Assembly: GCA_036924085.1 (NCBI GenBank)
Contig: JAVGWX010000013.1
Coordinates: forward strand, 63,935,157 to 63,999,156
Length of the DNA stretch: 64,000 nt
Reading direction: 5' to 3'
Source: Ariolimax columbianus
Taxonomy: Eukaryota > Mollusca > Gastropoda > Stylommatophora > Arionidae
The notes under the pieces are model-generated. The model saw only the letters and a list, made by a program, of their open reading frames with translations. It was not told the DNA's origin and searched no databases. A program made the translations under genes and the position numbers. Position 1 is the first letter of the stretch, and each line of letters begins with the position of its first letter. Positions 18,991 through 52,465 of the stretch are shown here, one piece after another.

Positions 18991-18999
18991 TTTATGCAT

Positions 19000-19410
19000 G
19001 TATGACTGCCTTGTTCTCATCCTTGCAATGAGTTGTCTTTGTGTGTGTGTTCATTTTCAAGTTATGTACCATTAGTCTTTTTTGTACTCCGTGAAATCCG
19101 CAGGATTCTACTCTAAAACCACATTTCGTTGCTTCGAATGATCGTGTCGCTTGCTTGCTAATTGTCCATGATTCACTGCCATATCTTAGTACTGGTTCTG
19201 CGAAACACCAAATTACTATTTTTCTTAGTTCCTTTGACCATGGTGTGTTGTACATTATCCATTTCATTGTCAGGAAGACCGATTTTCTTGGACTATTCTC
19301 CATTTTATTTCGTAATTACATCTTCCAACTGATCTTATGGATGTGCCCAAGTATTTGAACATGTTACCTTGTTTCAATTCAGTTTCCTTTCTAACATGGC
19401 TTTATCCCCT
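19000..19410 (-). pseudogene. LINE RT thumb fragment
   Basis: The minus frame from 19,303 reads SKELRKIVIWCFAEPVLRYG, SESWTISKQA and ATKCGFRVESCG. This matches the RT thumb segment LRKRLIKCYVxPVLxYGSECWTISKQ of a LINE family that is also present at 24,250-25,075. The homology continues past the frame start into 19,304-19,410 (gtgcccaagtatttgaaca resembles cgcccaggtgtttaaacg at 24,507). The RT palm is absent. The 16-bp satellite directly abuts the 3' side. Confidence 0.65.
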
Positions 19411-25399: not shown

Positions 25400-25990
25400 A
25401 GATGTGTGCCTCACTAATTTCTATGTGTTTTGCTTCCAGGTGCCACATCATCTGGTGTTTATCTTACGCTTTATCATTTTACCTACACAGCTCAGTAGAC
25501 TGATAGGCCTGTATCCATTTGGATCTGTTCTATCTTTTTCTTTCTTTGGTACTGGTATAAGTACAGCATCTTTCTATGCCTGAGGTACAATTCCCCTTTT
25601 CCAGCTTTGGTTCAAGACTGAAAGTAACTTCTTTTTTGCTGTTTTGCCCAACCCCATCAGCATTTCATTTGTTACCCAACCTTCTGGGGGCGATTTCTTT
25701 TTCTTTAAAGTTCGCATGGCCTCATTTCATTGATTATTAGTTTTGCCATCATATTCTCCTCTGGCGCCATCTTAATTTTGTTCTTCCCTTATGTCTGTAG
25801 GGACATCAATGTCGTTTGCTCTGGCATAGTGTTCTATAAAGGCGTTTGCTGCTTTTTTTCTTCCAATAAGCATGTTGTCACCCTGCTTGATGGTAATTTG
25901 TTTATTTGATGGCTCTGACTAGATTCCATAGTTTGTTCCCTTTATTATCTAGGTGGAGTCTTTCTGGTTTGTTTTGTCAAATGCGGGTGC
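25400..25990 (-). pseudogene. LINE fragment of the 34-37 kb family (pre-RT to RT fingers)
   Basis: Minus-strand pieces NKGNKLWNLVRAI, KQITIKQGDNM, APEENMMAKLIINEM, KAGKGELYLRH and NGYRPISLLSCVGK (the last in a shifted frame) follow, in order, residues about 415-600 of the open frame at 33,970-36,099. Stops and frame changes are frequent. Both ends are cut: the 44-bp array abuts the 3' side and nothing of the endonuclease is present. Confidence 0.7.
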
Positions 25991-26429: not shown

Positions 26430-29090
26430 TGAGTATCCCTATTTCTTCAAATTCACTCTGCATCTTGAGACACCATTTCGAAGTCTTTTCATTGCCTTCC
26501 ACACAGCGTAGGGCAGGTGGCGTCCAGGCGCAGCGTCTTTCTTGGGATCTATCCATGGATCCTGCATTGTTTCGCGCCACCTCTCTATGCGCCGACCTTC
26601 CGGGCTTGTCTGGATGGACTCTGTCGATTTTAAGAAACTATGTCTTGATTTAAGTTTTGTGGTTTGTTCCTGATGGCAAAACATCGGGTGTCTAAGGTTA
26701 TGTTCCTGTTTGCCCTCGCTCGATTTCCGCAGCTACACCTCTTCTTATATCATGTGGTGCAATGCCAATTAAGGGATATATTATGTTTGTGGGCTTGGGT
26801 TTAAGGCACCCCGACACTATCCTGCCCATCGCGTTCACTGCTGTATCATCGTGTTTTCCATGGGTGGAGTTTTTCCAGACTGGGGCTATATATTCCGCTG
26901 CGGAAAGGCATAGGGCAATCGCTGATGTGGGTACGACTGTTGGCTGAGCACCGCATGTTGTGCCAGTCAATTTTCGGATAATGGTGTTTCTCGCATGTAC
27001 ATTACGCTTTGTCTCCTGACAGTGTCATAAAGGATAATGTGCGATCCAACTTGACACTCAGGTATTTGGGAGCCGAGCAATGTTCAAGATTCTGTCCTTG
27101 CCATCTGATCTGCAGTTCTCTGTTTGCCTCTCTGTTCTTGTGGTAATAGGCCCATACCTGAGTTTTTCTAGGGTTGCGTTTTAGGTGGTTTTCCCGATAA
27201 TACTCTGCGAGGTAATTCAGAGAGCGTGTTAGTTTACCGTCTACCTCCTCTAAGCCATTAGCCTGACCAGCGACTGATGTGTCATCGGCGTATATACATT
27301 TCTTTTGTCAGTATCCATAGGTTAGTCTTTGGTATAGATGTTGTATATCATAAGATCAAGAACACTTTCTTGAGCCAGGCCGTAGGTTTGATTTTGCCAA
27401 CTACATAGAATTGCATGTTTTGAAGTACGCATTTGATTATGTTAGACAGACACAGTCTTTCGTCATGTTGTATAACTTTGTCTGCAACCTACGATGATTT
27501 ACTGTGTCCTAGGCAGCGCTTAGGTCTATATGTGCCACTCCAGTCACCTGGTTGCGCTCGAAACCATCCTCTATTATGTGTGTTAATTTGAGGATTTGAC
27601 TACTGCAATATCTCCCAGGTCTGAATCCAACGTGTTCCTTGATCAGCCTCGAGTCTATCCAGGGAGAGATGCGGTTCAGAATCATCATTTCAAAAACCTT
27701 GTATAGGTAGCATAAGAGCGACACTGGTGGAAAATTCGTTGGGTCTGTTGGAGTTTTCCCAGGCTTTAATAGGCCAACCACGTGTGCTTTCCTCCATTTT
27801 TGGGGCATATTTAAGGATTCGATGCATATGTTCATGAGACTTAGTAGGCAATTGATTGTTATTGGTCCAAACTGTTTTATTTGCTCTGTTCTCAAGTCGT
27901 CGGGTCGGCTGCTTTATTAGATTTTGTTAGGTTTATTGCTGCTCTTAATTCTTCAGTTGTGAAAGGTGCGCCCACTATATCAATCTTGACCTCCCGTTGC
28001 CGTTGGGTTCTTGTTTGTCCCGTTTTATATTTGGTTTGACCATCCATCAGTAATTGGTGGGCCAATTGGTCAGGAGTAACTTGAGTTATTCCAGGAGGAG
28101 CACATGTTGGGTCACTGCTGAGGTTCTTAATGAGTTCATATGCTCGCCTGCTGTTTTGCTTCATGTCCAAGTCTTTCACCAGGCTGCGCAACTTTTGCGT
28201 TTTGAATTCTGAGATGACATGAAGGAAATTTTCTCCAGCCTGGATGGTTTCCTCACCGAAGGGGTCTGTTTCGAACAACAGTTTATATTGCTCGTACAGT
28301 GCCTTTGAGTCATCGTTTAATCCAGGAATGTCCTTGATCGGCATCCTCGTGGGATGTCTTCTGGGGATTAATGTCGTTAATTCTATGAAAGCGTCATAGT
28401 TTGCAGTCTTATGTTCTAACTTGGACAGCTCTATCTCTAGGTCACATAAAATTGGTGCCCAATTAGCGAGTTTAAAATTGAATCGTCGTTTGAAGACTAC
28501 GTTCGCTGGTTCGACCATTGCTTTAATACTACATATAATGGGTCTATGTTGAGTTCTTGGAATAGGTTCTCCAATATTTTTTGTCACATGATTAAATATT
28601 TGAGTACTGACAAAAATATTGTCAGGAATATATCCCCTTTACCATCTGCCACTGTGAAAAGATGCTGGTAGTTTTAGGTCATGTAAGAGTAGTAGGCCGG
28701 TGGTCTCAGCCCATCTCTCACATTTTTCACCATCGACGTCTGTCTCTCATTGCTGTCTCTCATTGCTGTCTCTCAATGCTGTGTCATTTGAAATCGTCCA
28801 TGATTTTTTTAGTTTTCCGGGTTCTGAAATTGGCAGGTTCTTGACACTCGAAATCGTCAATGGGTGGCGTGAATATTGACGTCGCTGTGGAAGACTTGGT
28901 TTGGATTACAATAGTCTCTATGTTTCCTCCATGAGACTGATATACTGAATCGATGTCTCGGTCTGTTGATTCGAACATAATGTTACTATATTTCTGATGG
29001 TGTGTCTCTGCAACATGTTTCATTCCCTGTATATTAGGTCTTTGACCAGCGATTACACGATGGGTCTCTTGTGTCATTAGGACATTGTAA
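26430..29090 (-). pseudogene. Jockey-like LINE, nearly whole, 5'-truncated and frameshifted
   Basis: Minus-strand order: part of an apurinic endonuclease-like domain (29,077-28,590, diverged; QHRPIICSIKAMVE gives the terminal H of the SDH motif), a linker, ELRAAINLTKSNKAADP, then after a +1 shift near 27,895 the RT: LLKPGKTPTDPTNFPPVSLL, EHVGFRPGRYCSSQILKLTH, VAHIDLSAA-stop, and IYADDTSVAGQANGLEEVDG with an intact YADD at about 27,280-27,294. The C-terminus has CLSAAEYIAPVWKNSTHGK, IVSGCLKPKPTNIIYPLIG and LPYAVWKAMKRLRNGVSRC, followed by a Cys/His stretch in another frame. No RNase H domain is seen. At least one stop after motif A and several shifts make it dead. Confidence 0.75.
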
Positions 29091-30179: not shown

Positions 30180-30530
30180 AATAAAAATGCAATTAACTTT
30201 TGACCGAATCAAATAAAATGATTCAGACTTTTGAAACAATCAATGTTGGATTTATCGATACACACAATGTGATCGAATGATATTATCTTTTACCAAAACA
30301 ATAACCACATCACTAAAATAACAACAACAATGAACGTACTTTGTCTGTTTCTACAATCTGTGATCAGAATAGAAGACTTCTGCAGAGAGGTGAATCTGTT
30401 TGTGAAGCTAGTGTCTGTAGACTGGGGCTTATATTCTGTCCGAGTGAGACATCTGACGTCAGTTAAACAGTACAACCTAATACAACTTTTAATTTTTGTA
30501 ACTATTTTGTTGATTATCAAATGCCAGATT
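30180..30530. other. No gene seen; left flank of the rDNA-headed element
   Basis: AT-rich flank. The base before the element is the final t of atgccagatt (30,521-30,530). I could not find a matching direct repeat after the element's 3' tail at 37,819. Confidence 0.5.
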
Positions 30531-31165
30531 ATCTGGGGTAGTTGTCTCGCCGCGGCGACTCAATTTCAACCAGTGTTCGTAAAGCGATCTCAGTCCCGCC
30601 AGGCGGAGCGATAGCGCGGGCTTGCGGAAAACGCTCGCCTGCCTTTCCCCGTAGTGCGAATTGGGTGCGGTTTGTGGTAGTGGCTCCTCCACCGAGGTGC
30701 GCTAGTCTGGTCCGTATCAGGAAACGTGGTCCGTCCGTGGTGATTTATCTAAGGCTTATAGCAGAGCTCGACAGTACGTCTCGCTGGTGGTCCGACTCTC
30801 GCAAAGAGCTTGTGACCGGCAAATGGAAAGCAGGAATCGTTGCCTCGAGGCCCTGCGTTCTCCCTACGGAGAAGAAGGGCAGGCCAAATTGTGTCTCTAG
30901 TCCCAGTGAAATTCGTCGCCGAGGTCGTTGGGATCCGTTCTGCACAGAGCGCTGCCATCCCTCCTCAAGCGAGCCCGGTCGGTCGGTCGGTCGTCTGGTG
31001 CGTGTGGGAGGCCCCTGTCAGGCGGTCTTAGGTCGACGGAGTGAGGGACGGGTGGAACAAACCGTCCGTCCCGTCAGTCGGTCCCTGCGGCCGTCGTCCC
31101 AGCGAGGCTTTTTACACACCCTTCCTCCGCCGACCGGTGTGTGCTGTACGTACGTCTCCGACAGA
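30531..31165 (+). promoter_or_regulatory. Putative pre-rRNA 5' ETS, used as element 5' region
   Basis: GC-rich sequence (cggtcggtcggtcggtcgtc, ccgtccgtcccgtcagtcgg) directly upstream of the 18S start, in the place of the external transcribed spacer. Both element copies begin at exactly the same base 635 or 633 bp before 18S, which would fit the RNA polymerase I transcription start. I infer that Pol I transcripts may have supplied the retrotransposition template. The true promoter lies upstream of the start site and I cannot see it. An open frame of 249 codons over 30,542-31,291 is low-complexity GC coding noise. Confidence 0.55.
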
Positions 31166-32332
31166 TATCTGGTTGATCCTGCCAGTAGTCATATGCTTGT
31201 CTCAAAGATTAAGCCATGCATGTCTAAGTTCACACTGTCTCACGGTGAAACCGCGAATGGCTCATTAAATCAGTCGAGGTTCCTTAGATGACACGATCCT
31301 ACTTGGATAACTGTGGCAATTCTAGAGCTAATACATGCTTACCAAGCTCCGACCCTCGCGGAAAGAGCGCTTTTATTAGTTCAAAACCAATCGTCGTTTC
31401 CCCTCGCGGGGTTGCGGCGTCCCCACTGGTGACTCTGGATAACTTTGTGCTGATCGCATGGCCTCATGTGCCGGCGACGCATCTTTCAAATGTCTGCCCT
31501 ATCAAATGTCGATGGTACGTGACATGCCTACCATGTTTGTAACGGGTAACGGGGAATCAGGGTTCGATTCCGGAGAGGGAGCATGAGAAACGGCTACCAC
31601 ATCCAAGGAAGGCAGCAGGCGCGCAACTTACCCACTCCCGGCACGGGGAGGTAGTGACGAAAAATAACAATACGGGACTCTTTCGAGGCCCCGTAATTGG
31701 AATGAGTACACTTTAAACCCTTTAACGAGGATCTATTGGAGGGCAAGTCTGGTGCCAGCAGCCGCGGTAATTCCAGCTCCAATAGCGTATATTAAAGTTG
31801 TTGCAGTTAAAAAGCTCGTAGTTGGATCTCAGGCGCAGGCGGGCGGTCCGGCTCGCGCCGGTTCACTGCCCGTTGTCTCCTGCCCTACCGTCTGCCGGCT
31901 CTCTCCCACGGGTGCTCTTCGCTGAGCGTCCTGGGTGGCCGGCGCGTTTACTTTGAAAAAATTAGAGTGTTCAAAGCAGGCCTCGGCTGCCTGAATAATG
32001 GTGCATGGAATAATGGAATAGGACCTCGGTTCTATTTTGTTGGTTTTCGGAACTGGAGGTAATGATTAACAGGGACAAACGGGGGCATTCGTATTGCGGC
32101 GTTAGAGGTGAAATTCTTGGATCGCCGCAAGACGAGCTACTGCGAAAGCATTTGTCAAGAATGTTTTCATTAATCAAGAACGAAAGTCAGAGGCGCGAAG
32201 ACGATCAGATACCGTCGTAGTTCTGACCATAAACGATGCCGACTAGCGATCCGCAGGAGTTGCTTCGATGACTCTGCGGGCAGCTTCCGGGAAACCAAAG
32301 TGTTTGGGTTCCGGGGGAAGTATGGTTGCAAA

Positions 32333-32381
<49 letters not shown>

Positions 32382-32405
32382 GCGGCTTAATTTGACTCAA
32401 CACGG
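31166..32405 (+). rRNA. 18S rRNA, 5' two thirds (1,240 bp, truncated)
   Basis: It starts tatctggttgatcctgccag (the usual form is tacctggttgat) and follows the eukaryotic small-subunit order: gtctcaaagattaagccatg, cgcgaatggctcattaaat, ctagagctaatacatgc, gccagcagccgcggtaattc (the 530 loop, intact here), aaattagagtgttcaaagca, aaggaattgacggaagggca and tttgactcaacacgg. It then breaks off: the sequence that should follow (gaaacctcacccggcccg) is missing, so the 3' third, including the decoding site, is absent. It cannot make a functional rRNA. The variable segment with ggcgggcggtccggctcgc and cctgggtggccggcgcgtt suggests a heterobranch gastropod. Confidence 0.9.
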
Positions 32406-33080
32406 CCAACACTGAAATGATTGACATGCCGAGACCACTCTTCTGGGGCTTAATATGGAACTGGTGCTGGACTTAGACCCCCAGAAATCTGGAGTTATGC
32501 CCCCTGTGGCTCGGTTTTGTCTGCATCCAGTGTTTGATAAAGGAATTGACGGAAGAGCACTATCAGGAGTGGAGCCTGAGACCTAAGTTAACTTAACACG
32601 CCAATAATGCAGAATGACTATCAAAAAGTACACCTTCGTGGGGTCTAATAGAGAACATGTGCTGGAATTAGACCCTCGAAAATTTTGGGGCTACCCTCTT
32701 GATTGTCTCGCTAAGGGAATTGACGGAAGGGCACCACCAGGTGTGGAACCTGCGGCTTAATTTGACTGAACACGCCAATACTGTAGAACAACTGACAAAT
32801 CGAGAGCACTGCCGTTTGGGTCTAATAATGAACGTACGCTGGTATTAGACTCACGGATGACAAGTCAGCTCCCAAACACTCAAATGAAAGAACGCTACGG
32901 AAATCGTGTTTAACTCCGCAGAAACCGCAGATTTCAAATACCTGGTCATTGACAAACAAAAGCCCTCAATAAATTCGTCTGACCAAATAGTGAACGGGTG
33001 CTGGAAATAGATCATCTGAAGACAGGTCAGTTTTACCCTACAAATGACAGGGCGTTGCTACGGAAAACCAGCTCAAATCG
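32343..33080 (+). repeat. Tandem units derived from 18S (about 175-195 bp each)
   Basis: The 18S segment ggaattgacggaagggcacc followed by accaggagtggagcctgcgg recurs at about 32,346, 32,539 and 32,713, increasingly altered. Each is followed by cacgccaa, a diverged attgac block and a gctgg-a-ttagac motif. Weaker later units carry only gtgctggaaatagatc and gctacggaaa (about 32,995-33,075). So the stretch grew by tandem duplication of 18S nucleotides near 1,180-1,300 plus new sequence. The minus-strand copy has two clear units instead of three. Confidence 0.8.
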
Positions 33081-33969
33081 AGAGGAGCCGCAGACACTTT
33101 GGTTCACGTACCAGGCTGATAAGCCAAGGGCGCGAGGCTACCATGTGGGGGATTACGGCCGAACCCTGGTAAGCCGTAATCCCGCCCAAAATCTCAGCAC
33201 CACTGCAATGGGAGGCTCCTACATGATCGGGACCTAGGGCTTGCGCCTCAGCCCTATCAGGTAGAGCCACAGTATGAGGTCCTTGCCGTCCGCCAATCAA
33301 AGCGGGCGGACAACTGCTTGATACTCACCCTATACGGCGTTGGGGTGCGAAAACACCAACCAAAGACTTAGTACCTGGTCGGGGTGTCGAAAACAGTAGA
33401 GCAGCCACCTCACTGTGAACTGTCAAGACTCAACCACTGACCATGAGAGTTGTCCGCACACCAGGCGATCAACATCTCTGTGACATTACCAGGCTTGTCC
33501 TCTGGCGAAATGCACTCCGGCTACGATATCTACCTCTGTACGTTATCAGCCATAACTATCATGCTGGACGCAGAAGAGATGCAGACCAGCGGACATTGCA
33601 CACCTGCCCCACTGTGTCAACACCCCAGGTGGCGGGGAATGCTAGGCGTACCATCCCTGCATAGAAGCCAAGAAAACAAAGGGAAAAAGAGATACCCCAC
33701 TCACATGCAAATGCTACGTTTCTGGCAGGACGTGACGATCCTGGGATACAGACACACTGGACTGCCTCTCTTCCGGGTAAACCAGTCCATCTCATATATC
33801 ATATCATCATTGCACCCTATAGACACGAGTAGTGAAGACTCGAAAGTCTGGTAAGACAACTTCTATAGGAGAGAAAACTCTGATCGTAAACAACTGCTGC
33901 CTTGCAGATAGGCTGGGGACAGCCAAAGGCTAAGGAGGGCATCCCTACAGAAACGCCTGTTGAAATCGG
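33081..33969 (+). other. Linker between rDNA-derived part and endonuclease
   Basis: Homologous to 49,030-50,010 (opposite strand) but more diverged than the rDNA part, with indels. Frames of 73-134 codons occur, none with a recognised motif and none preserved between the two copies, so I do not call a gag-like first protein. A shared stretch before the coding start, caacgtaaat (about 34,006), marks the place where the other copy loses the coding part. Confidence 0.55.
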
Positions 33970-36099
33970 ATGCACGGGGCCGCAAGCCTAACAAAACAGT
34001 GCAACGTAAATCACAGTATGATGGCAGCACAACCTTTTCGAAAAACGTATGGCGCTCATCCTGAGGAGACCCGCCAGGCAGCGATAGCGCCGGGCCTCAC
34101 GCCTCGAAGGGGCCCACCCTTGACTACTGGTGGTCACCCACCCATGTGTCGTGGAGTCAAGGCACATGGCTATGGGGTAACGTCTATTGGCCAAAACCTC
34201 AAGACCCTCAAAATACTACAGTGGAATGCGGAGGGAGTCATTAACAAAAAACTTTCCCTAACACACCACCTGCATGAAGGTAAGATTGACGTGGCATGTA
34301 TCCAGGAAACGCACCTCAACAATAACCATAAATTCTCAATCAGAGGATACCAGACCTTCCGTCTAGATAGAGAAGGCCACAAAGGAGGGGTTCTGATACT
34401 GACCAGAAACAGCATACCGAGTAGCGCGGTACCTGTCAATCACACCGGACAAGCAGAAATTGTAGGAGTTGACATAATGGCTCAAGAGACGAAACTCCGC
34501 ATTTTCAATCTGTACGGACCACCAAACAGAGACCTATCGCTCTCGAGTATGGAGGTCAGAGACTCCAACTGCATAGTAGTTGGAGATTTCAACAGCCACT
34601 CGGAGAGATGGGGATACTCTGACACAGACAGTAGAGGTGACGAAGTGGAAGATTGGGAGATAGATGCAAATCTCTCCCTAATCAATAGGCCGGAGGATAG
34701 CCCTAGCTTCTACTCAAGAACATGGCATACCACCTCGACTCCAGATTTGGCCTTCTCCACACAGGACATACACTATAAAATAGACCGCCAGGTGCTGAAC
34801 CAACTGGCAGGTAGCGACCACAGGCCGATCAGGCTAACCATTGACATGGAAGTAAGCCCACAGGAAACAAAACCGCTCCCACGTTGGAATTACAAACGAG
34901 CCGACTGGGACAGATTTGCAATCCTGACAGATGGGCTGTGTGAAACCATCAACACACGAAACACCAAAATGAAGCCCATGGTGGAGAGCCTAAGCAAGGC
35001 AATAATGCAAGCCGCCACTGAAACCATCCCAAGAGGAGCTAGGAAAAACTATAAGCCCTACTGGAATGATGAGTTACAGAAAGTGGAAGATGCAGTAACA
35101 AATGCTAGGAACATGGCAGAACGAGAAAAATACATGGAGGCAAACATCGCCCTCAAAGCCGCTGCGGCGAAGTACAAACACACTCTCAAGCAAACAGCAA
35201 GAGAAAGTTGGAAAAATAAAACGGAAAGTCTGAACCTGGACAAAGACGGGAACAAGCTATGGAAGCTAGTCAGAGCCATGAACGACGAAACCCCGTCAAA
35301 TAAACAAATTACCATCAAGCAGGGCGAGAACTTGATCACAGGTAAGAAAGCTGCAAACGCCTTTGTCGATCACTATGCCAGAGCAAACCACATCGAGGTC
35401 CCTGCAGATAAGCATACAGACATTAGCGAAGAGCTAAAGGGACACGAAAACATAAATACGGCTCCTGAAGAGCACATGATGGCCAAACTTACAATGCGCG
35501 AAATGAAAGAGGCTATGAGTACACTAAAGAAAAGGAAATCTCCCGGAAAAGACGGGATAACAAACGAAGTGCTGATGGAGCTGGGCCAAACAGCGAAGAA
35601 GAAACTACTATCAGTCCTGAACCAAAGCTGGAAAAGGGGTATTGTACCCCAGGCATGGAAAGATGCAATACTGGTACCAGTACCAAAAACAGGGAAGGAC
35701 AAAACAGATCCAAATGGATACAGGCCCATAAGCCTACTGAGCTGTGTCGGCAAGCTGATGGAACGGATGATAAACACCAGACTGATGTGGCATCTGGAAG
35801 AAAAACGAATACTAATTCCACAGCAAGCCGGCTTTAGACAGCACAGATCCACTGAGGACCAGGTCATCCTCATAGCCCAGGAGATAGAAGATGCCTACCA
35901 GGCACAGAAACACACAGTAGCTGTTTGGGTGGATCAACCACTACCTCAAACAAAGAACGGCCAGAGTCCAAGTACAAGGGCAGATGAGCAAAAAGGTGAC
36001 ACTCGAGCAGGGAGTACCCCAAGGGGGAGTACTGTCACCCACACTCTTCCTGGTATATATAAACGATATTACAAAGAATATACCAAGAAGAGTCCGTAG
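33970..36099 (+). pseudogene. LINE endonuclease and RT N-terminal half
   Basis: Open frame of 709 codons. Residues about 80-290 form an apurinic endonuclease domain with all signature residues visible: LQWNAEG (N86), IQETH (E113), LYGPP, GDFNSH (D206, N208), STPDL (D260) and GSDHRP (D283, H284). A linker follows (FVDHYARANH), then RT fingers: KRKSPGKDGITNEVLMELG, NGYRPISLLSCVGKLMERM and QQAGFRQHRSTEDQVIL. It reaches the motif A aspartate (VWVD, D655), after which the frame is wrong: 89 bp are missing compared with the copy at 45,650-45,740, between two tggat repeats. The last 54 residues are read out of frame. The start is the first ATG of the frame; the true start may be nearer residue 77. 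The protein would nick target DNA and prime reverse transcription. Confidence 0.85.
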
Positions 36100-37789
36100 C
36101 TCAATGTTTGCAGACGATCTGGCTATGTGGACCTCTGAAAAGAATCTCACTATAGCAAGAAATCGGATGCAAACGGCCCTAACATCGCTGGAAGAGTGGG
36201 CGAACTCATGGCTGGTCAAAATAAACGAGGAGAAAACCACGTGCACAATATTCTCGCTCTCATTAAAACCCCAAAGTACCAAATTAAGCCTAAATGGCAA
36301 AATCCTGCAGCCAAACGACAACCCAACCTATCTGGGAGTCACATTTGATCGGCGCATGACATGGAAAAGTCAGATTGAGAGAAACCGAATGAAAGCCAGA
36401 GAAAGAATGGCGATCATGAGGAAACTTGCTGGCACAAGCTGGGGAGCAGACGAAGGCATACTAAAGAAACTGTACACTGGAAGAGTGAGACCAGTTCTCG
36501 AGTATGGCATCGCGGCATGGACAACAGCAGCGAAGGCGAACTTCGATAAAGTTAACAAACTTCAAAACCAAGCCATGAGAATTATAACAGGTGGCATGAA
36601 GTCAACGCCAATTGTAGAACTTGAAAAGATTACAAAACTGCAATCAATGACCGACAGAAGAGACTGCAGAGCCCAGCTGCAGTCAGAGAAACTCCGAAGA
36701 CTGACGGACCATCCAATGTACCAGAGACTAAACAATTTGGGAACTGGGAAACTAAAGCGGAGAAACTTTGCAGAAATAGCCAAAGCAAAGATGCACGAAG
36801 ATCCCATAAACGCACTAACAACACCAAAACCCATCACTACTGTACGAAAACCTACTTGGAGGCAGGATATATTTCCAGAGGTGGTAGAAAATATACCAGG
36901 TATTGCAAACAAAAACTGCCAGACCGAAAAAGAAAGGAGAGACACTACCCTAAGCTTCATAACGAAAAGCTACCCAAGCATGGACTGGACCCATGCATAC
37001 ACCGACGGTTCTGTAACAAACGCTACACAGAACGGAGGGGCAGGAGCATTCCTGAACCTACCAAATGGCAGAAAAATAACACTGTCACTCGCTACTGGTA
37101 AGTACACAAGCAATTTCAGAGCGGAGGCAGAGGCACTGAGGGCGGCAGTGGAAGAAATGGCAACACACAGTGAAAACGAGAGCCACATAGTCTTGCTGAC
37201 AGATGCTCTCGCCGTAGTCACAGCGCTAAAAAGCCAGAAAAACACTGAGCTAAATGACTTAAGAGCAGCACTCTGCAAACTGTGCCAGCTGTCCGCACCA
37301 AAAAGGGTAGTGGTACAGTGGGTTCCGTCACACTGCAACATCCAAGGCAACGAGGAGGCAGACAGACTGGCAAAAGAAGGTGCAAGGCTACCACAAACAG
37401 ATACCAGTATGACGTACGAAGAGTCAAAACGGCTTATCAAAGCCAGGTACATGACTAAATGGGAAACCGAACATACTGGTTACACCAAAAACGATGCCTA
37501 TTACCAGTTGAACCGAAGAGAGCAGGTCGTTGTCTTCAGACTTCGCACTGGCCACAATAGACTGAGATACCACCTATTCAAAAAATTGAAAATAGGTGGT
37601 ACCGACAAATGCCCGTGCGGTACCGGTAAAATGACCGCTGAACATCTGCTGCAGAACTGCCCGACATACGAGGATCAGAGAGAGCAGATGTGGCCAGTGC
37701 CAGTGGAACTGCAAGACAAGCTCTATGGTAGTGGCGAGAGTCTCAGGATGACCGCCGCTTTTTTCGAGAAAATAATGGTTACTGTCTGA
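35984..37789 (+). pseudogene. LINE RT C-terminal half, RNase H and Cys/His motif
   Basis: Open frame of 601 codons; the RT similarity begins upstream of its ATG (WINHYL at about 35,932), showing it is the continuation of the previous frame. RT motif B is EQGVPQGGVLSPTLF, motif C is MFADDLAMW (FADD at 36,107-36,118, intact), then YLGVTFDRRMTW and VRPVLEYGIAAW (thumb). RNase H spans about residues 335-465 with its acidic set visible: YTDGS (D341), FRAEAEAL (E381/E383), LLTDAL (D407), WVPSHC (H450) and EEADRLA (D460). The C-terminus has CPCGTGKMTAEHLLQNC, a CCHC-like zinc motif. Ends MVTV before the tail tgtgtacgcagaagaag. The organisation fits the I/jockey group with RNase H. Confidence 0.88.
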
Positions 37790-37818
37790 CTGTGTACGCA
37801 GAAGAAGAAGAAGAAGAA

Positions 37819-38559
37819 ACAGTACACGTGAACAAGATTAGCATAATGTAGTTTGGTTGGCTGCGCAATTGTGTGACTAACTGGCCAAAAAAATGGAAGC
37901 TCAAATTATAGTCTACTGTAGATACAGGCATTCTGACTCACGGAGAAACCATCTTGAAATGTCACATTCCACCGACGACCAAATGTCAAAACGTTCAACT
38001 CATGTCCGTTCCACAATGGTTGCAGTCAATTGTCGTCTCATATCTCAATAACCATTGCACAGATCAAATATATACTTATTTTACTTGGTCTTATCTTTTC
38101 AATGTCCCAATGACTTTCTAATTTACATTTAGTCAGGAACTGCGATATTCTTAAAGTGGCTAGTTCCTTTAATCTTTGTTAGGAAAGGAATTATTTAGAT
38201 GTTGCAGAAAAGAACTTAACAAAAATTATTAAATTGTCTTTCGTTATGCATAGGCGTCACTCCATCTCGAATGATGTTGTGTACATTATGTATCCCATAA
38301 TGCCCTTTAAATAATGTAGTTCATGTGTTTTAGGAACTGTAAGAATTAATTTCACATTTCGTAGAAAAATGTGTGAAGATATATAAACACAGGATAAAAA
38401 AGAACATAGCAAGTACTTTCATCAGATGGATTAGTCCAGGTTTATAAATAGACGCTGGAGCAAATAACAAATGGTTACAATTCAGTTCTGAGGTCCATTT
38501 TCTAACTGACTGTGGTGGCCCAGAAATGTGCCGTTTTGCGAAAGTGATGGGAACTTCTG
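37819..38559. other. No gene seen
   Basis: Right flank of the element; AT-rich, no motif. The minus-strand frame over 38,330-38,671 has a transposase-like N-terminal part only (see next entry) and a membrane-like tail that I take as chance. Confidence 0.45.
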
Positions 38560-44019: not shown

Positions 44020-44935
44020 TGATACCTTATATTAGTGGTTTTGGACTTTTTGATATGCGAGGACCAATTCGCAGACATCTAGAACATTCGCTGATCAAAG
44101 AAAAGACGGTTACTTCACACACATACCACACCATGGACAGTTACATCACACACAGACCACACCATGGACAGTTACATCACACACAGACCACACCATGGAC
44201 AGAAATATCACACACAGACCAAAACAGGGACAGTTACATCACACACAGACAACACCATGGACAGTTACATCACACACAGACCACATCATGGACAGTTACA
44301 TCACACACAGACCACAAAATGGACAGTTACAACACACACATACCCTATAATGGACAGTTACATCACACACAGACTCCATCATGGACAGTTACATCAGATA
44401 CATACCCCATTATGGACAGTTACATCACACACAGACCCCATCATTGACAGTTACATCAGATACATACCCCATCATGAACAGTTACATCACACACAGACCC
44501 CATCGTGGACAGTTACATCACACACATATCCCATCGTGGACAGTTACATCACACACATACGACATCATGAACAGTTACAACACACACATATACCATCATG
44601 AACAGTTACATCACACACATATCCCACCATGGCCACTTGCATCACACACATACCCCCTCATGGACAGCTACATCACACACATATACCATAATGAACAGTT
44701 ACATCACTCACATACCCAGCCATGACCACTTGCATCACACACACACCACATCATGAACAGTTACATCACACACATACCCCATCGTTGACAGTTGCATCAC
44801 ACACAGAACCCCATCATGGACAGATATATCACACATAGACCACACCATTGACAGTTTCATCACACACATACCCCATTATGGACAGTTGCATCACACACAG
44901 ACACCATCATGGACTGTTACATCACACACAAAACA
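44020..44935 (+). mobile_element. hAT-like terminal sequence joined to a 31-bp satellite
   Basis: The segment at 44,025-44,075 (ataccttatattagtggttt, then tatgcgaggacc) is a diverged copy of 55,970-56,035 read inverted, where it is taccttgttctagtggttct then caaaccttttat. The tagtggttctcaaacctttt core is like hAT-superfamily terminal repeats. In both places it leads directly into the same satellite (here 44,098-44,935). I see no transposase, so this is best seen as a non-autonomous element carrying the array. Confidence 0.5.
44098..44935. repeat. 31-bp minisatellite, about 27 units
   Basis: The unit is atggacagttacatcacaca plus cagaccacacc. Since 31 is not a multiple of three, all three plus frames stay open with the same 31-residue His/Thr-rich period. 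The inverted short array at 55,760-55,960 belongs to the same family. Confidence 0.9.
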
Positions 44936-46170
44936 GAAACCTCAATCTAGATAGAGAAGGGAACAAACTACGGAAATTAGTCAGAGCCATGCATGACGAA
45001 ATACCATCAAATAAACAAATTACCATCAATCAGGGTGACAACATGTTTACTGGAAAAAAGCAGCAAACGCCTTTATAGAACATTATGCCAGAGTAAATAA
45101 CATTGATATCCCTACAGACAGGCAAACACACATAAGTGAAGAACAAAATAGCCACGACAACATCCAGATTGCACCAGAGGAGCTCTTGATGGCAAAACTA
45201 AATATGAATGAAATGAATGAGGCCATGAGAACTTTGAAGAAAAAGAAATCGCCGGGAAAAAATGGGGTAACAAATGAAATGACGATGGGGTTGGGCCAAA
45301 CAGCAAAGAGGAAGTTAATGTCAGTCCTGAACCAAAGCTGGAAAAGGGGAATTGTATCTCAGGCATGGAAAGATGCTGTACTTATACCAGAAGAAAACAA
45401 AGAAAAAGATATAATAGATCAAAATGGATACATGCGTATCAGTCTACTGAGCTGTGCAGTCAAACTGAAAGAGCGTATGTTAAACACCAGACTGATCTGA
45501 CACATGGAAAAAAAGACAGTTATTGATTCCACAGCGAGCAGGATTTAGACAACACAGATCCACTGAGGATCAGATCACTCTCATTGCGCAGGAAAGAGAG
45601 GATGCTTACCAAGAAAAAAAGCATACAGTTGCGGTTTGGGTGGATCTAGAGAAGGCATTTTACAAGGCACGGCAAGAGGGACTTAAAGTAAAGCTACGAA
45701 GAAGTAAATTATCTGGCAAAATGTACAGATGGATGAGCCACTACCTCGAAAACAGAACAGCCAGAGTTCAAGTACAAGGGCAGAGGAGCAAAAAGGTGAA
45801 ACTGGAGCAAGGAGTACCGAAAGGGGGAGTACTGTCACCCAAACTGTTTCTGGTGTATATAAACAACATCACATAAAATATACCAAGAAGAATCCACAGC
45901 TACATCTTTGCAAGCGATCTGGCTATGTGGACCTATGAAAAAAATCTCACCGTAGCAAACAATCGGATGCAACAGGACCTAACATCGTTGGAGAAGTGGA
46001 CGAAATCATGCTGGTAAGCAAAAAAATTAAGAAAACACATGCACGATATTCTCCCTTTCAAATCACATAACACCAAAATAAGACTTAATGGCAAATATAT
46101 GCGGCTAATCGACAACCCAAACTACCCGGGCGTCACCTTTGATCGGCGCATGACATGGACAAATCAGATC
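44933..46170 (+). pseudogene. LINE copy 3, first segment (pre-RT to RT)
   Basis: Same family as 33,970-37,789. From NLDREGNKLRKLVRAM through KQITINQGDN, LKKKKSPGKNGVTNEM, AGFRQHRSTEDQITL, VWVDLEKAFYKARQEGLKVK (motif A present) and EQGVPKGGVLSPKLF to RLNGKYMRLIDNPN. The catalytic FADD is FASD (45,907-45,918), and at least three frameshifts or stops occur. The endonuclease is missing, the 31-bp array being fused at 44,933. It ends at the insertion site of another LINE: aaatcagatc at 46,161-46,170 is repeated at 47,535-47,544. Confidence 0.85.
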
Positions 46171-47534
46171 TTCTTCTTCTTCGTACGCAGTCAGACAGTA
46201 ACCATTATTTTTTCGAAAAAAGCAGCCGTCATCCTAAGGCTGTCGACACTGCCATTGAGCTTGTCTTGTGGTTCCACTGGTGATGGCCACATCTGCTCTC
46301 TCTGATCCTCGTATGTCGGGCAGTTCTGCAGCAGATGCTCAGCGGTCATTTTCTCGGTACCACCTATCTTCAATTTGTTGAATAGGTGGCACCTCAGTCT
46401 ATTGTGGCCAGTGCGAAGTCTGAAGACAACGACCTGCTCTCTTCTGTTCAACTGGTAATAGGCATCGTTTTTGGTGTAGCCGGTATGTTCAGTTTCCCAT
46501 TTGGTCATGTATCTGGCTTTGATAAGCCGTTTTGACTCTTCGTACGTCATACTAGTATCTGTTTGTGGTAGTCTTGCACCTTCTTTTGCCAGTCTGTCTG
46601 CCTCCTCGTTGCCTTGGATGTTGCAGTGTGATGGGACCCACTGTACCACTACCCTTTTTTTACGGACTGCTGGCATAGTTGACAGATTGCTACTCTTAAG
46701 TCATTAAGCTCAGTGTTTTTCTGGCTTTTTAGCTCTGTGACTACGGCCAGAGCATCTGTAAGCAGGACTATATGGCTTTCATTTTCTTAATGTGTCACCA
46801 TTTCTTCCACTACCGCCCTCAGTGCCTCTGCCTCCGCTCTGAAATTGCTTGTGTACTTACCAGTAGCGAATGACAGTGTTATTTTTCTGCCATTTGGTAG
46901 GTTCAGGAATGCTCCTGCCCCTCCGTTCTGTGTAGTGTTTGTTACAGAACCGTTGGTGTATGCATGGGTCCAGTCCATGCTTAGGTAGTTTTTCGATATA
47001 AAGCTTAGAGTAGTATCTCTCCTTTCTTTTTCAGTCTGGCAGTTTTTTTGTTTCCAATTCCTGGTATATTTTCTACCACCTCTGGAAATATATGCTGCCT
47101 CCAGGTAGGTTTTCGTACAGTAGTGATGGGCGTTGGTGTTGTTAGTGCGTTTATGGAATCTTCATGCATCTTTGCTTTGGCTATTTCTGCAAAGTTTCTC
47201 CGCTTTAGTTTCCCATTTCCCAAATTGTTTAGTCTCTGGTGCATTGGGTGGTCAGTCAGTCTTCGGAGTTTCTCTGACTGCAGCTGGGCTCTGCAGTCTC
47301 TTCTTTCGATCATGGGTTGCAGCTTTGTAATCTTTTCAAGTTCTACAATTGGCGTTGACTTCATGCCTCATGTTATAACTCTCATGGCTTGGTTTTGGAG
47401 TTTGCTAATTCTATCAAAGTTCTCCTTTGCTGCTGTTGTCCATGCCGCAATGCCATACTCGAGAACTGGTCTCACTCTTCCAGTGTACAATTTATTTAGT
47501 ATACTTTCATATGCTCCCCAGCGTGTGCTGGCAA
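46171..47534 (-). mobile_element. LINE copy 2, 5'-truncated, nested inside copy 3
   Basis: A minus-strand insertion of 1,364 bp, flanked by the 10-bp direct repeat aaatcagatc. It keeps the RT thumb (LNKLYTGRVRPVLEYGIAAW), the spacer, RNase H and the 3' end with gcgtacgaagaagaagaaga. RNase H is damaged: YTDGS is YTNGS (first catalytic aspartate lost, about 46,946-46,960), and a frameshift and a stop follow (EEMVTH-stop). A 21-bp in-frame deletion between two ggtacc repeats removes the CxC half of the zinc motif (GGTEKMTAEHLLQNC remains). It is a standard target-primed insertion, now inactive. Confidence 0.88.
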
Positions 47535-48951
47535 AAATCAGATCGAGAGAAACCGAATGAGAGCCAGGCAAAGAATGGCAGTCATGAGGAAACTTGCTGG
47601 CACAAGCTGGTTAGCAGACGAAAGAATACTGAAGAAACTGTACACTGGAAGAGTGAGACCAGTTCTCGAGTATGGCATAGCGGAATGGACAACAGCAGCA
47701 AAGGAGAACTTTGATAGAATTAGCAAACTCCAAAACCAAGCCATGAGAGTTATAACATGAGGCATGAAGTCAACGCCAATTATAGAACTTGAAATTATTA
47801 CAAATCTGCAATCCAGGACTGATAGAAGAGACAGCACCAGCAAGCAGAGAAACTAAGAAGACTGACAGACCATCCAATGCATCAGAGACTAAATAGATTT
47901 GGATAAGGGAAACTAAATTGGAGAAACTTTGCAGAAATAGTCAAAGCAAAAATGGAAAAAGACCCTATGAACACCATAACAACACCAACGCCCACCACTA
48001 CTGTACGCGAATCCACCTTGAAGCAGCATATCATTCCAGATGTAGTAGAAAATATACCAGGTATTAGAAACAAGAACAAACAGATTCAAAAAGAAAGAAG
48101 ATACATAACCCTGAGGTACATAACGGAAAACTACCCAAGCATGGACTGGAACCATGCATACACCGACGGTTCTGTAACAAACACAACACATAATGGAGGG
48201 TGAGGGGTATTCCTGAGCCTACCAAATGGTAGAAAAATAACACTGTCAGTGGCAACTGGAACATTCTCAAGCAATTTCAGAACGGAAGCAGAGGCACTGA
48301 ATGCTGCAGTAGAAGCAATGCTGACAGGCCAAAGCAATGAAAGGCATATACTCCTGTTTACAGAAGCCCTGTCTGTGGTTACAGCACTAAAAAGACATAA
48401 AAATACTGAACTTATAAATGTTTTAAGAGCAGTACTCTGTCAACTATGCCAGCAGTCCGCACCAAAAAGAGTAGTGGTAGAGTGGGTTCCATCCCACTGT
48501 AACATTCAAGGCAACGAGGAGGCAGACAGACTGGCCAAAGAAGGTGCAAGATTATCATAAACCAGATTCTAGTGTGACCTACGAAGAGTCCAAAAGGTTT
48601 ATTAAGGCCAGATACATAGCCAAGTGCGAAACAGAGCATACTGGCTACACAAAAAATGATGCCTATTACTAGTTGAACAGAAGAGAGCAGGTCATGGTCT
48701 TCGGATTCCGCAAAGGCCACAACAGACTGAGGTACCAACTATTCAATAAACTGAAAATAGGTGGTACTGATGAATGCACCTGTGGTACATGGAAAATGAC
48801 CGCTGAACATATGCTGCAAAATTACCCGACATACGAGGACCAGAGAAAGCACATGTGGCCATCACTAGTGCCAACACTAGACACGCTTTATGTCAGTGTC
48901 GACAGTCTCAGGATGACAGCTGCTTTATTCGAACACATTCAAGTTGGCGTC
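47535..48951 (+). pseudogene. LINE copy 3, second segment (thumb, RNase H, C-terminus)
   Basis: Continues copy 3 from RNRMRARQRMAVMRKLAGTS after the nested insertion: LEYGIAEW, PTPTTTVRESTLKQHIIPD, NHAYTDGSVTNT, NFRTEAEALNAAVEAM, WVPSHCNIQGNEEADRLAKE and KIGGTDECTCGTWKMTAEH. RNase H aspartates are present but stops (NGG-stop, RLS-stop, YY-stop) and shifts break it. It ends at aagttggcgtc (48,941-48,951), the target-site duplication of the rDNA-headed element; the rest of its 3' end resumes at 52,405. Confidence 0.85.
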
Positions 48952-49989
48952 TTCTTCTTCTTCATCGTACGCTGTTTACAGCGATATTTACGTTGCACTG
49001 ATTTAATTTGTTAGCCAGTGGCTCAATGCATCCGATTTCAACAGGCGTTTCTGTAGGGTTGCCCTCCTTAGCCTTTGGCTGTCCCCAGCCTAACTGCAAG
49101 GCAGCAGTTGTTTTTGGTCAGAGTTGTCTCTCTTGGGAAGTTGTCTTGCAGGACTATCGAGTCTTCCCAACTCGTGTCTATAGCGTTTGGTAATGATATG
49201 ATGGACTATGTACTAGTTTGTACTATCCCGGAAGAGAGGCAGTCCAGTGTGACTTTTTCCCATGATCGTCACGTCCTGCCAGAAACGTAGCATATGCATA
49301 TGAGTGAGGTATCTTTTTGCTCGCTTTATTTTCTCGGCTCATCTGCAGTGATGGTACGCCTAGCATTCCCCGCCACCCGGGAGCTTGCCACCATAGGACA
49401 GGAGGTGCAATGTCCGCTGGACTGCATCTCTTCTGCGTCCATTGGAATGACTGATAGCAGACAGATGCAAAGAGCGAGGAAGGAGTGCATTTTACCAGGT
49501 GCATTCCTGCGGCTCGATCGGGCCCTCAGATGGTAGCTTATCAGCCAAGCACGTTGACCAAATGTCAGCGACCTGTGATTCCTCTCGAAATAGTGCATTT
49601 GACCAGGTGACAAGCCTAGTCTTGCACGGAGATGTTGTTCGCCTGAGGAGCGGACATATCTCATGGTCAAGGGTTGAGTCTCAGCAGTTCGCAGTGAGGT
49701 AGCTGATCCACTGCTTAGGGTACCCCGACCGAGAACTAAGTCTTCTACAATTGATTTCATTCCTCATCGCCGTATGGGGTGAATATCGAGCAGCTTCCCG
49801 CCCGCTTTTATCAGCGGACGGCAGAGACCTCATTCTGCGGCTTGACCGGGCGGGGCTGGAGCGTGGCCCCCAGGTCCCCACCATATCGAAGCCTTTGTAT
49901 CGTGCTGGGCTGCTTTTGGGCGGGATTTTTGGCTTAGAGGCGTTCGGCCTTAATCCCTCACCTTGCACCGTTGGCTTATCCGCCTAGTA

Positions 49990-50544
49990 CGTGAACCAAA
50001 TGTCTGCGGCTCCTCTCGGGCTTAGCAGGATTACCGTAGCAAAGCCCTGTCATTAGTAGGGTAAAACTGACCTGTCTTCAGAGGGTCTATTTCCAGCACC
50101 CGTTCAATATTAGCCAGACCGTATCAATAGAGGGCTTTTAGTTTGTCAATGGCCAAGTTTCTGGAGCCTGCGATTTCTGCAGGGTGAAGACCAGATTACC
50201 GTAGCAGGCGCTCTTTCATTTGGAGGTTTGGAGACTGACCTGTCTTCCGTGGGTCTAATACCAGCACATGTTCACTATTAGACCCATCAAAGGTGCTCTC
50301 TTTTGACAGTCTTTCTACACTATTGGCGTGTTTAGTCATTTTAAGCCTCAGGCTCCACTCCTGATAGTGCTCTTCCGTCAATTCCTTTATCAAACACTGA
50401 ATGCAGAGCAACCGAGCCACAGGGGGCATAACTCCAGATTTCTGAGGGTCTAAATCCAGCACCAGTTCCATATTAAATCCCAGGAAAGTGGTCTCGGCAT
50501 GTCAGTCATTTCAGTGTTGGCCGTGTTGAGTCAAATTAAGCCGC

Positions 50545-50590
<46 letters not shown>
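49990..50590 (-). repeat. 18S-derived tandem units, second copy
   Basis: On the minus strand ggaattgacgga recurs from about 50,582 and 50,388; later units keep only tgctggtattagaccc and gctacggtaatc. The 32,713-type unit of the plus copy is missing, so the arrays differ by one unit. Confidence 0.75.
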
Positions 50591-50593
<3 letters not shown>

Positions 50594-51760
50594 TTTGCAA
50601 CCATACTTCCCCCGGAACCCAAACACTTTGGTTTCCCGGAAACTGCCCGCAGAGTCATCGAAGCAACTCCTGCGGATCGCTAGTCGGCATCGTTTATGGT
50701 CAGAACTACGACGGTATCTGATCGTCTTCGCGCCTCTGACTTTCGTTCTTGATTAATGAAAACATTCTTGACAAATGCTTTCGCAGTAGCTCGTCTTGCG
50801 GCGATCCAAGAATTTCACCTCTAACGCCGCAATACGAATGCCCCCGTTTGTCCCTGTTAATCATTACCTCCAGTTCCGAAAACCAACAAAATAGAACCGA
50901 GGTCCTATTCCATTATCCCATGCACCATTATTCAGGCAGCCAAGGCCTGCTTTGAACACTCTAATTTTTTCAAAGTAAACGCGCCGGCCACCCAGGACGC
51001 TCAGCGAAGAGCACCCGTGGGAGAGAGCCGGCAGACGGTAGGGCAGGAGACAACGGGCAGTGAACCGGCGCGAGCCGGACCGCCCGCCTGCGCCTGAGAT
51101 CCAACTACGAGCTTTTTAACTGCAACAACTTTAATATACGCTATTGGAGCTGGAATTACCGCAGCTGCTGGCACCAGACTTGCCCTCCAATAGATCCTCG
51201 TTAAAGGGTTTAAAGTGTACTCATTCCAATTACGGGGCCTCGAAAGAGTCCCGTATTGTTATTTTTCGTCACTACCTCCCCGTGCCGGGAGTGGGTAAGT
51301 TGCGCGCCTGCTGCCTTCCTTGGATGTGGTAGCCGTTTCTCATGCTCCCTCTCCGGAAACGAACCCTGATTCCCCGTTACCCGTTACAAACATGGTAGGC
51401 ATGTCACGTACCATCGACATTTGATAGGGCAGACATTTGAAAGATGCGTCGCCGGCACATGAGGCCATGCGATCAGCACAAAGTTATCCAGAGTCACCAG
51501 TGGGGACGCCGCAACCCCGCGAGGGGAAACGACGATTGGTTTTGAACTAATAAAAGCGCTCTTTCCGCGAGGGTCGGAGCTTGGTAAGCATGTATTAGCT
51601 CTAGAATTGCCACAGTTATCCAAGTAGGATCGTGTCATCTAAGGAACCTCGACTGATTTAATGAGCCATTCGCGGTTTCACCGTGAGACAGTGTGAACTT
51701 AGACATGCATGGCTTAATCTTTGAGACAAGCATATGACTACTGGCAGGATCAACCAGATA
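50521..51760 (-). rRNA. 18S rRNA, 5' two thirds, second copy (1,240 bp)
   Basis: Same start (tatctggttgatcctgccag), same end (tttgactcaacacgg) and exactly the same length as 31,166-32,405, with only a few substitutions noticed. One of them is in the universally conserved 530 loop: gccagcagctgcggtaattc instead of the ccgcgg form. Another is ggttcgtttccgg for ggttcgattccgg. A functional rRNA would not tolerate the first change, so this copy is free of rRNA selection. Confidence 0.9.
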
Positions 51761-52393
51761 TCAGTCGGAGACGTACGTACAGTACACACCGGTCGGCGGA
51801 GGAAGGGTGTGTAAAAAGCCTCGCTGGGACGACGGCCGCAGGGACCGACTGACGGGACGGACGGTTTGTTCCACCCGTCCCTCACTCCGTCGACCTAGGA
51901 CCGCCTGACAGGGGCCTCCCACACGCACCAGACGACCGACCGACCGGGCTCGCTCGAGGAGGGATGGCAGCGCTCTGTGCAGAACGGATCCCAACGACCT
52001 CGGCGATGAATTTCACTGGGACTAGAGACAATTTGGCCTGTCGGCCTGCCCTTCTCCGTAGGAGAACGCAGGGCCTCGAGGCAACGATTCCTGCTTTCCA
52101 TTTGCCGGTCACAAGCTCTTTGCGAGAGTCGGACCACCAGCGAGACGTACTGTCGAGCTCTGCTATAAGCCTTAGATAAATCACCACGGACGGACCACGT
52201 TTCCTGATACGGACCAGACCAGCGCACCTCGGTGGAGGAGCCGCTGCAGCAAACCGCACCCAATTCGCTCTACGGGGAAAGGCAGGCGAGCGTTTTCCGC
52301 AAGCCCGCGCTATCGCTCCGCCTGGCGGGACTGAGATCGCTTTACGAACACTGGTTGAAATTGAGCCGCTGCGGCGAGACAACTACCCCAGAT
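51761..52393 (-). promoter_or_regulatory. Putative 5' ETS, second copy
   Basis: 633 bp, nearly identical to 30,531-31,165, differing for example by one tcgg tetranucleotide unit and a short rearrangement near the ggagaagggcaggcc block. It starts with the same atctggggtagttg. Confidence 0.6.
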
Positions 52394-52465
52394 AAGTTGG
52401 CGTCTGACAGCGCACGAAGAAGAAGAACAAGAAGAAAAAGAAGAAGAAGAAGAAGAAGATACGCA
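52394..52465 (+). mobile_element. 3' terminus of LINE copy 3 (displaced)
   Basis: After the duplicated aagttggcgtc (52,394-52,404) the sequence tgacagcgcacgaagaagaa continues what LINE copy 3 lost at 48,951 (family form: tgtctgactgtgtacgcaga). A long GAA-rich tail runs to about 52,460. Confidence 0.8.

Follow-up and report, generated by a model that had tools for sequence, protein, structure and literature searches.

A LINE carrying the 5' end of pre-rRNA is dispersed through the Ariolimax columbianus genome and probably has its source in ribosomal DNA

The stretch of DNA considered here (the window) comprises 64,000 nucleotides of the gastropod Ariolimax columbianus (C13:63935157-63999156 of a 2.29-Gb genome in 401 contigs; contigs are given as C numbers, loci fetched for comparison as L numbers). 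It contains copies of a long interspersed nuclear element (LINE) that have a head made of about 635 nt of the 5' external transcribed spacer (ETS) of the ribosomal RNA precursor (pre-rRNA), followed by nt 1-1240 of 18S rRNA. The same junction recurs thousands of times in the genome, and one unit with this junction, still attached to the native promoter, is present in the ribosomal DNA (rDNA). The explanation that we favour, with a probability of roughly 0.83, is that an rDNA-resident LINE is transcribed from the rRNA start site and yields the dispersed ETS-18S-LINE copies.

The most complete example in the window, copy 1 (30531-37816, plus strand), contains on one strand and in this order the ETS, the 18S segment, 18S/28S-like repeats, a degenerate 28S 3' end, an open reading frame (ORF) for an apurinic/apyrimidinic endonuclease (APE), a reverse transcriptase (RT) and an RNase H, and a GAA tail. 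An initial annotation, made from the sequence alone, had proposed that ETS, 18S, repeats, enzyme domains and tail are collinear, and this was borne out by Rfam, Pfam and alignment to a native rDNA unit (L033). The 18S block of copy 1 (31166-32405; Rfam SSU_rRNA_eukarya, 950 bits at 31169-32313) has 0 differences from L033. The 635 nt in front of it align end to end, with several differences, to the native 5'ETS, so that base 30531 is the first position after native ...GGAATGTATATT, directly 3' of the native rDNA promoter. The repeats had been called 18S-derived and are indeed real, with 86% (32538-32600) and 90% (32712-32782) identity to native 18S; the pieces between them look, by eye, like 28S. 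The 28S 3' end (33049-33451) had been missed; it matches positions 3005-3399 of 3401 of the Rfam LSU_rRNA_eukarya model (70.2 bits, E 2.1e-14). As for the endonuclease, RT and RNase H, the domains are present (PF14529, PF03372, PF00078, PF00075), but the ORF of copy 1 is broken, because its RT lacks about 82 bp that are found in 18 of the 20 loci fetched for comparison (in L023 the gap is larger, and L020 has no ORF).

A second copy, copy A (52393-48953, minus strand), had been reported to share the first base, the 1,240-bp 18S block and the tail, and does so, with 5 differences from the native unit in the 18S (Rfam 940 bits at 50613-51757, minus strand). It lacks the ORF. Copy A is a single insertion within the 3' end of another copy, copy B, and has the 12-bp duplication AGACGCCAACTT at both ends, a length reached in 0 of 2000 shuffles. 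The ETS, 18S, 5' region and tail must therefore have entered together. In copy 1, the putative duplication AAACAGTACA is only 10 bp long and weak alone (17 of 2000 shuffles reach that length), and 56 additional bases (30475-30530) separate it from base 30531, which distinguishes copy 1 from other loci. When 30476-30530 was compared with loci L001-L040 (native L033 included), the only matches were L001 (copy 1 itself) and 14 nt within L025; the extra bases are probably an added template or filler. Copy A in turn has about 110 bp that copy 1 lacks (49460-49610, minus strand) and that by eye resemble 28S 3' sequence. The 5' region of the element seems to have collected rRNA pieces repeatedly. The features of the window that belong to the element are the following.

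30465..30474, plus: 5' putative target-site duplication AAACAGTACA of copy 1, a 10-bp match to 37817-37826, 56 bp upstream of base 1
30475..30530, plus: extra 56 bases 5' of the copy 1 head (comparison with fetched loci)
30531..31165, plus: pre-rRNA 5'ETS from +1 (alignment to the 635-nt L033 ETS; native letters just before are ...GTATATT)
31166..32405, plus: 18S rRNA nt 1-1240 (Rfam; 0 differences from native)
32406..32950, plus: 5' region specific to the element, with degenerate 18S repeats (nt ~1177-1240) and 28S-like sequence (18S-like pieces aligned to native 18S)
33049..33451, plus: degenerate copy of the 28S rRNA 3' end (match to the Rfam LSU_rRNA_eukarya model, not to native 28S of this genome)
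33970..37789, plus: APE endonuclease - RT - RNase H ORF, broken by the missing ~82 bp near 35930 (Pfam)
37801..37816, plus: GAA-repeat 3' tail of copy 1 (same tail in 18 further loci)
37817..37826, plus: 3' putative target-site duplication of copy 1 (match to 30465..30474)
44928..46169, plus: first part of copy B, covering the RT region and broken off by copy C (alignment to copy 1, 35213-36375)
46169..47534, minus: copy C, 5'-truncated, inserted in copy B, duplication GATCTGATTT (alignment; duplication read by eye from the flanks)
47533..48940, plus: copy B, second part, up to the copy A insertion (alignment and flanks)
48941..48952, minus: 3' target-site duplication of copy A, within the copy B 3' end (flank comparison)
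48953..52393, minus: copy A, non-autonomous, with ETS (52393 to ~51761), 18S nt 1-1240 (~51760-50521), repeats, 28S-like piece and GAA tail, no ORF
52394..52405, minus: 5' target-site duplication of copy A, AGACGCCAACTT (shuffle test)

The exact 30-base string across the 18S-element junction occurs 4,379 times in the genome, and its reversed control 0 times. Local duplication as the source of the likeness between copy 1 and copy A is ruled out by these two counts. A search with the ETS gave 1,795 candidates, and the best 40 scored all covered base 1; 20 of these, chosen by ETS similarity, were fetched. All 20 have the identical first base and 18 run on into the ORF, which in 10 (for example L016) is an uninterrupted frame of 1,302 amino acids and indicates recent activity. 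The initial annotation had made its proposal depend on additional loci that share the ETS start and the 18S end; these are clearly present, and they also show the flanking duplications expected of insertions. In 15 of 18 testable loci (L015 and L020 were left out, their 3' ends being undefined), a duplication of 11-14 bp adjoins base 1 and is repeated at the GAA tail, whereas 0 of 306 mismatched control pairs reach 8 bp. This implies that the unit inserts as one piece. The failure of L019 is explained by a 12-bp overlap at 33648-33659, where the short element sits in another copy. In L021, the first 17 nt of the head stand a second time before base 1, with an 8-bp match ahead of them, which would fit a jump of the RT to a very short transcript beginning at the rRNA start, and for L023 a flanking duplication was not found. 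Six loci picked by the junction alone, from the first 100 places listed and all on C1, comprise four that begin at base 1 and two that are truncated within the 18S.

Arrays of rDNA are hard to assemble, and the promoter-bearing unit described below rests on one contig, so that an assembly artefact or misjoined rDNA has to be considered. The junctions number in the thousands, the loci lie on many large contigs with matching duplications and flanking sequence that is unrelated among loci, and copy A sits inside another copy of the element, which supplies its empty site. We give this possibility hardly any credence. Searches with the protein point to a molluscan setting, since most organism-named matches among those listed come from molluscs (Elysia, Littorina, Ostrea and others; 39-49% identity). 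No confirmed relatives of the element were found in viral contigs, which also gave 0 junction matches, or in a collection of genome contigs.

The best 40 of 1,442 candidates for the native promoter all lie on C67 (17) and C50 (23). Twenty intervals at the expected 18S position were inspected, of which five are readable at the junction; four go on as native 18S, and one (L054) turns into the element. In the unit at L061 (C67:96600-99500), the native promoter (454 bp, 0 differences) is followed by the start site, the ETS, 1,240 nt of 18S with 0 differences, and then the element, whose 598 readable nt differ by 0.2-0.7% from those of seven dispersed copies. The ETS of this unit carries a 24-nt deletion relative to L033, along with a few other changes, of which two occur in older heads too. 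A search with L061 gave 42 matches, namely itself, 14 in rDNA, 25 dispersed copies with the element and 2 secondary pieces. The 14 rDNA matches run through the promoter, and 11 of them end at the junction and 3 before it. In contrast, all 25 dispersed matches start between -3 and +12 of the native start, none more than 3 nt above it. The suggestion in the initial annotation that the element is made from transcripts beginning at the rRNA start site gains support from these starts and from the position of base 1 directly after the native promoter. The accompanying idea, that the element thereby acquires a strong promoter with no need to insert into the rDNA array, is not supported: the copies begin at +1 without the upstream promoter, and the sole promoter-bearing copy found is in an rDNA unit on C67. 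The 24-nt deletion and the neighbouring changes of L061 recur in 14 of 14 length-matched dispersed copies; the deletion is in 0 of 2 copies not so matched, one of which shares the change at ETS 389. Ten of the 14 signature loci start exactly at base 1 and have flanks that are not rRNA-like. Of the other four, L072 likewise begins at base 1, with 18S in front of it; L067 and L070 deviate within the first 2-3 bases; and L076 begins at about +13.

The three parts of the unit differ in how far their variants are shared among copies. Across 27 heads, 122 variants of the 18S are single and 2 are shared, both of them C>T at CpG, so that the heads are arranged like a star with native 18S at its centre. 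Independent placement of the 126 substitutions yields 3.4 shared variants on average; the sharing is thus no greater than expected from independent hits, and there is no sign that dispersed copies were parents. In the 5' region of the element, 228 variants are single and 208 shared among 22 copies (Fisher 1.8e-26), and in the ETS 58 are single and 45 shared, with old states common to old copies. The 18S/ETS set (27 heads, 25 with ETS) omits L011, L013 and L019 and counts both heads of L012 and L015. The element set (22 of 28 copies) omits L011, L012, L013, L019, L021 and L024, which are without the exact junction string, and one copy comparison used 16 of 21 copies, without L011, L013, L019, L020 and L023. 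By the element 5' region, the autonomous copies (copy 1, L016) group with L035 in clade I, and copies A, L020 and L036-L038 form clade II, in which the ORF was seen to be absent in A and L020. L016 and L020 have 0 ETS differences at 631 sites, yet diverge by 19.8% over the ~1,000 nt at the start of the element. In four quartets, the ETS tree is opposite to the tree of these ~1,000 nt, each with 1000 of 1000 bootstraps. An origin of the head as a neutral, old, inherited 5' untranslated region is ruled out by the star-like 18S, the 228/208 pattern in the element and the divergence of L016 and L020.

Several observations weigh against a source resident in rDNA. The change between the trees does not fall at nt 1240: over its first ~170 aligned nt, the element still has the tree of the ETS (498 and 494 of 500 bootstraps for element nt 1-272), and the opposite tree appears past nt 273 (497-500 of 500). 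Identity drops at about 32585, near the second 18S-like piece. The change-over suggests that ETS, 18S and the ~170-nt stretch are one exchanged block that ends near this piece, and hence that part of the opposite-tree result reflects exchange near the repeats and not fresh native sequence alone. For us, this slightly lowers both the favoured explanation and template switching (discussed below), and raises an alternative in which the head is inherited. There, dispersed copies would have a promoter downstream of +1, selection would keep the 18S, and recombination at the 18S-like repeats would shuffle heads between clades. The common first base in most fetched copies fits an internal promoter, and the 45 shared ETS variants, together with the linked ~170 nt, indicate that the head is, in part at least, inherited as a linked module. 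However, the 18S variants fit independent hits only, so that selection would be required on 1,240 nt of a mobile element, and the resident unit already provides a known promoter at exactly that start. We regard an inherited head as highly improbable.

The other difficulties for an rDNA-resident source concern the native side and the comparisons themselves. The heads have two ETS types, N1 and N2, and most are N1, whereas the four native units compared are all N2, and no sources of N1 heads were seen. Since an N1 sequence had served as the ETS query, N1 matches were favoured; a query with an N2 head finds many copies at 99-100%. ETS position 21 is C in 24 of 24 heads compared and T in native L033; in another comparison, the resident unit and 14 of 15 copies readable there have T, and L067 has C. 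In the contrast between 2 shared variants in the 18S and 208 in the element, ETS and 18S were scored against the native sequence, and the element region against the majority. The 14 of 14 for the L061 signature is a biased rate, the copies having been picked by length and identity matching. Only one resident unit was found among 12 units with a match reaching the junction, or in 1 of 5 readable intervals, and its 3' side reads N. A resident unit of clade II was not found, with 0 of the best 40 scored N2-head matches on the rDNA contigs identified by then, and no tail was found within 30 nt of 18S nt 1239 onward in the readable genome sequence. The resident unit could also be the product of recombination with a dispersed copy and not the source. 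On C67, the promoter spacings of 18,554 and 11,184 add up to 2 x 12,150 + 5,438, and 5,438 is near the length of the element without its head (about 5,490, from L016); going by this arithmetic, and nothing beyond it, the resident element may lie within a complete rDNA unit. Also on this contig, the promoter at C67:136802-137266 is inverted relative to the other 16 listed there, and the spacings are irregular.

Native-like heads would likewise be produced by template switching at each insertion, with RNA from dispersed LINE copies and an RT that jumps from the 5' region, with its 18S-like repeats, onto native pre-rRNA and copies to +1. Jumps of this kind do take place. In L012 and L015, a second pre-rRNA piece (ETS and 18S to about nt 1293 and 1670, respectively) is joined to base 1, the outer piece being N1 and the inner head N2, and in L012 the duplication stands at the outer ends, beyond the second piece. 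The 18S sequence in front of L072 and the start repeat of L021 are of the same kind, and L011, L013 and L019 join 18S nt ~898, ~349 and ~883 to the element, for which post-insertion deletion is also possible. These joins are scattered in the 18S, in contrast to the 4,379 exact junctions at nt 1240, which include those of the old, diverged L035-L038 and L040. Moreover, the first ~170 nt of the element are absent from native pre-rRNA yet travel with the ETS, and template switching leaves unexplained why an rDNA unit with promoter has the same junction and why its ETS deletion is found in 14 dispersed copies. As a general explanation, it appears very unlikely. As a separate matter, 18S sequence beyond nt 1240 occurs at 97-100% identity on large contigs in 24 of the best 40 scored matches, one of them L015 (other examples are C4:92309920, C12:4768485, C12:78206511 and C18:12335088), and may represent more pre-rRNA retrocopies.

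If the source is an rDNA-resident LINE, the following sequence of events can be envisaged. An APE-type LINE with one ORF for endonuclease, RT and RNase H would reside in rDNA, joined after 18S nt 1240 and with the native promoter kept. To judge from this promoter, RNA polymerase I (Pol I) would transcribe the unit from the rRNA start site into one hybrid RNA, predicted to comprise the 5'ETS, 18S nt 1-1240, the degenerate 18S/28S repeats, the ORF and the GAA tail. The LINE protein, translated from this RNA, would reverse-transcribe it from the tail to the 5' end and integrate the product at unrelated sites with duplications of 11-14 bp. As the offspring begin at +1, they would be without the upstream promoter and, presumably, mostly sterile. 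Resident units may exchange among themselves the block made of ETS, 18S and the adjoining ~170 nt of the element, with concerted evolution and selection holding the 18S native, so that each dispersed head would be a dated snapshot of the resident units. The remainder of the LINE would retain the older lineages, autonomous clade I and non-autonomous clade II. Template jumps onto pre-rRNA or other RNA may add 5' pieces in a minority of insertions. We also lean, with clearly less assurance, towards a more radical version, in which all fertile copies of this LINE are in host rDNA on the Pol I promoter, the thousands elsewhere are sterile complementary DNA fossils, and two lineages, one of them ORF-less, share the same nursery.

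Among the closest parallels are R elements. Like them, the element is a retrotransposon without long terminal repeats (non-LTR) that has endonuclease and RT. Residence at a fixed position in an rRNA gene, as in R elements, may apply here too, with one promoter-bearing unit joined after 18S nt 1240 and a 3' junction that reads N. Unlike R elements, it is not confined to rDNA, as judged from the 4,379 junctions and from unrelated, duplicated flanks on large contigs. As regards its source, it probably behaves like an R element. Drosophila R1 is an rDNA-resident non-LTR element, and its melanogaster-type full-length copies outside rDNA likewise have an upstream rRNA tag, which is limited to 7-28 bp of 28S, whereas the tag here reaches back 1,875 nt to the transcription start and is found at thousands of junctions (PMC2718515). 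R2 is transcribed with the rRNA gene, and a 5' ribozyme cuts its RNA from the co-transcript (PMC3414825). Transcription with the rRNA gene (likely here), the internally deleted partners known for R2 and R1 (short internally deleted elements, SIDEs) and template jumps, there to small cellular RNAs, are common ground. Upstream rRNA, in contrast, is removed in R2 and kept here, and the described SIDEs lie in 28S genes, whereas the short form here is dispersed (PMC3414825). The restriction-like endonuclease and 5' ribozyme of the R2 clade were not encountered, the endonuclease being of the APE type and an Rfam scan of the window at gathering scores revealing no ribozyme family. R7 of Anopheles and R8 of Hydra target the 18S gene as well, and R8 belongs to the R2 group, in contrast to the element with its APE endonuclease (PMC6530143, PMC5035012).

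LINE-1 forms chimeras with 28S, 5S, U6 and other RNAs, which also place an rRNA piece at the 5' end of a LINE insertion; these are sporadic and short (for 28S, 18 loci with 50-482 nt, mostly sense), whereas one fixed join is found here 4,379 times (PMC13174262). The variable rRNA-LINE join typical of template-jump chimeras is restricted here to a minority, namely L012, L015, L072 and perhaps L011, L013 and L019. Short interspersed nuclear elements (SINEs) derived from 5S rRNA have an internal RNA polymerase III promoter. The element does not resemble a SINE in having a 1,302-amino-acid ORF in 10 of 20 loci and a head of pre-rRNA, and copy A, though ORF-less, is 3.4 kb long; an RNA polymerase III promoter was not searched for. 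SINEs derived from 5S and 28S rRNA (PMC13174262) share the rRNA-derived head, but are short, whereas the pre-rRNA head here is on a full LINE. A search of an open-access literature collection, at the level of titles and abstract openings, turned up no family of dispersed LINEs whose pre-rRNA head begins at the start site.

An rDNA-resident source would join two states that have so far been kept apart, R elements confined to rDNA and dispersed LINEs. It would also constitute a master-copy system found in nature, in which the source in rDNA can be identified and the offspring are marked, and thousands of dated ETS and 18S copies would let a single genome show the past evolution of its rRNA start and spacer. 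At the same time, it raises the questions of how what is probably a Pol I transcript serves for the translation of a LINE, and how transcription of rDNA insertions can be frequent enough to fill a genome. If the fertile copies are in rDNA only, translation of the protein would have to take place more than 3.4 kb from the 5' end of a Pol I transcript that has no cap.

The window holds other features as well. At 25416-25975 (minus strand) there is a more distant LINE relative, 75-79% identical to other copies, and at 27892-28587 (minus strand) an ORF without Pfam match that by eye resembles part of another retroelement. A partial seven-transmembrane receptor of the Srw type is found at 61446-62054 (minus strand). 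A minisatellite with a 16-bp unit and a strong skew in both GC and AT takes up about 11 kb (8100-19000), and further tandem arrays in the window have units of 33, 31, 38, 37 and 60 bp.

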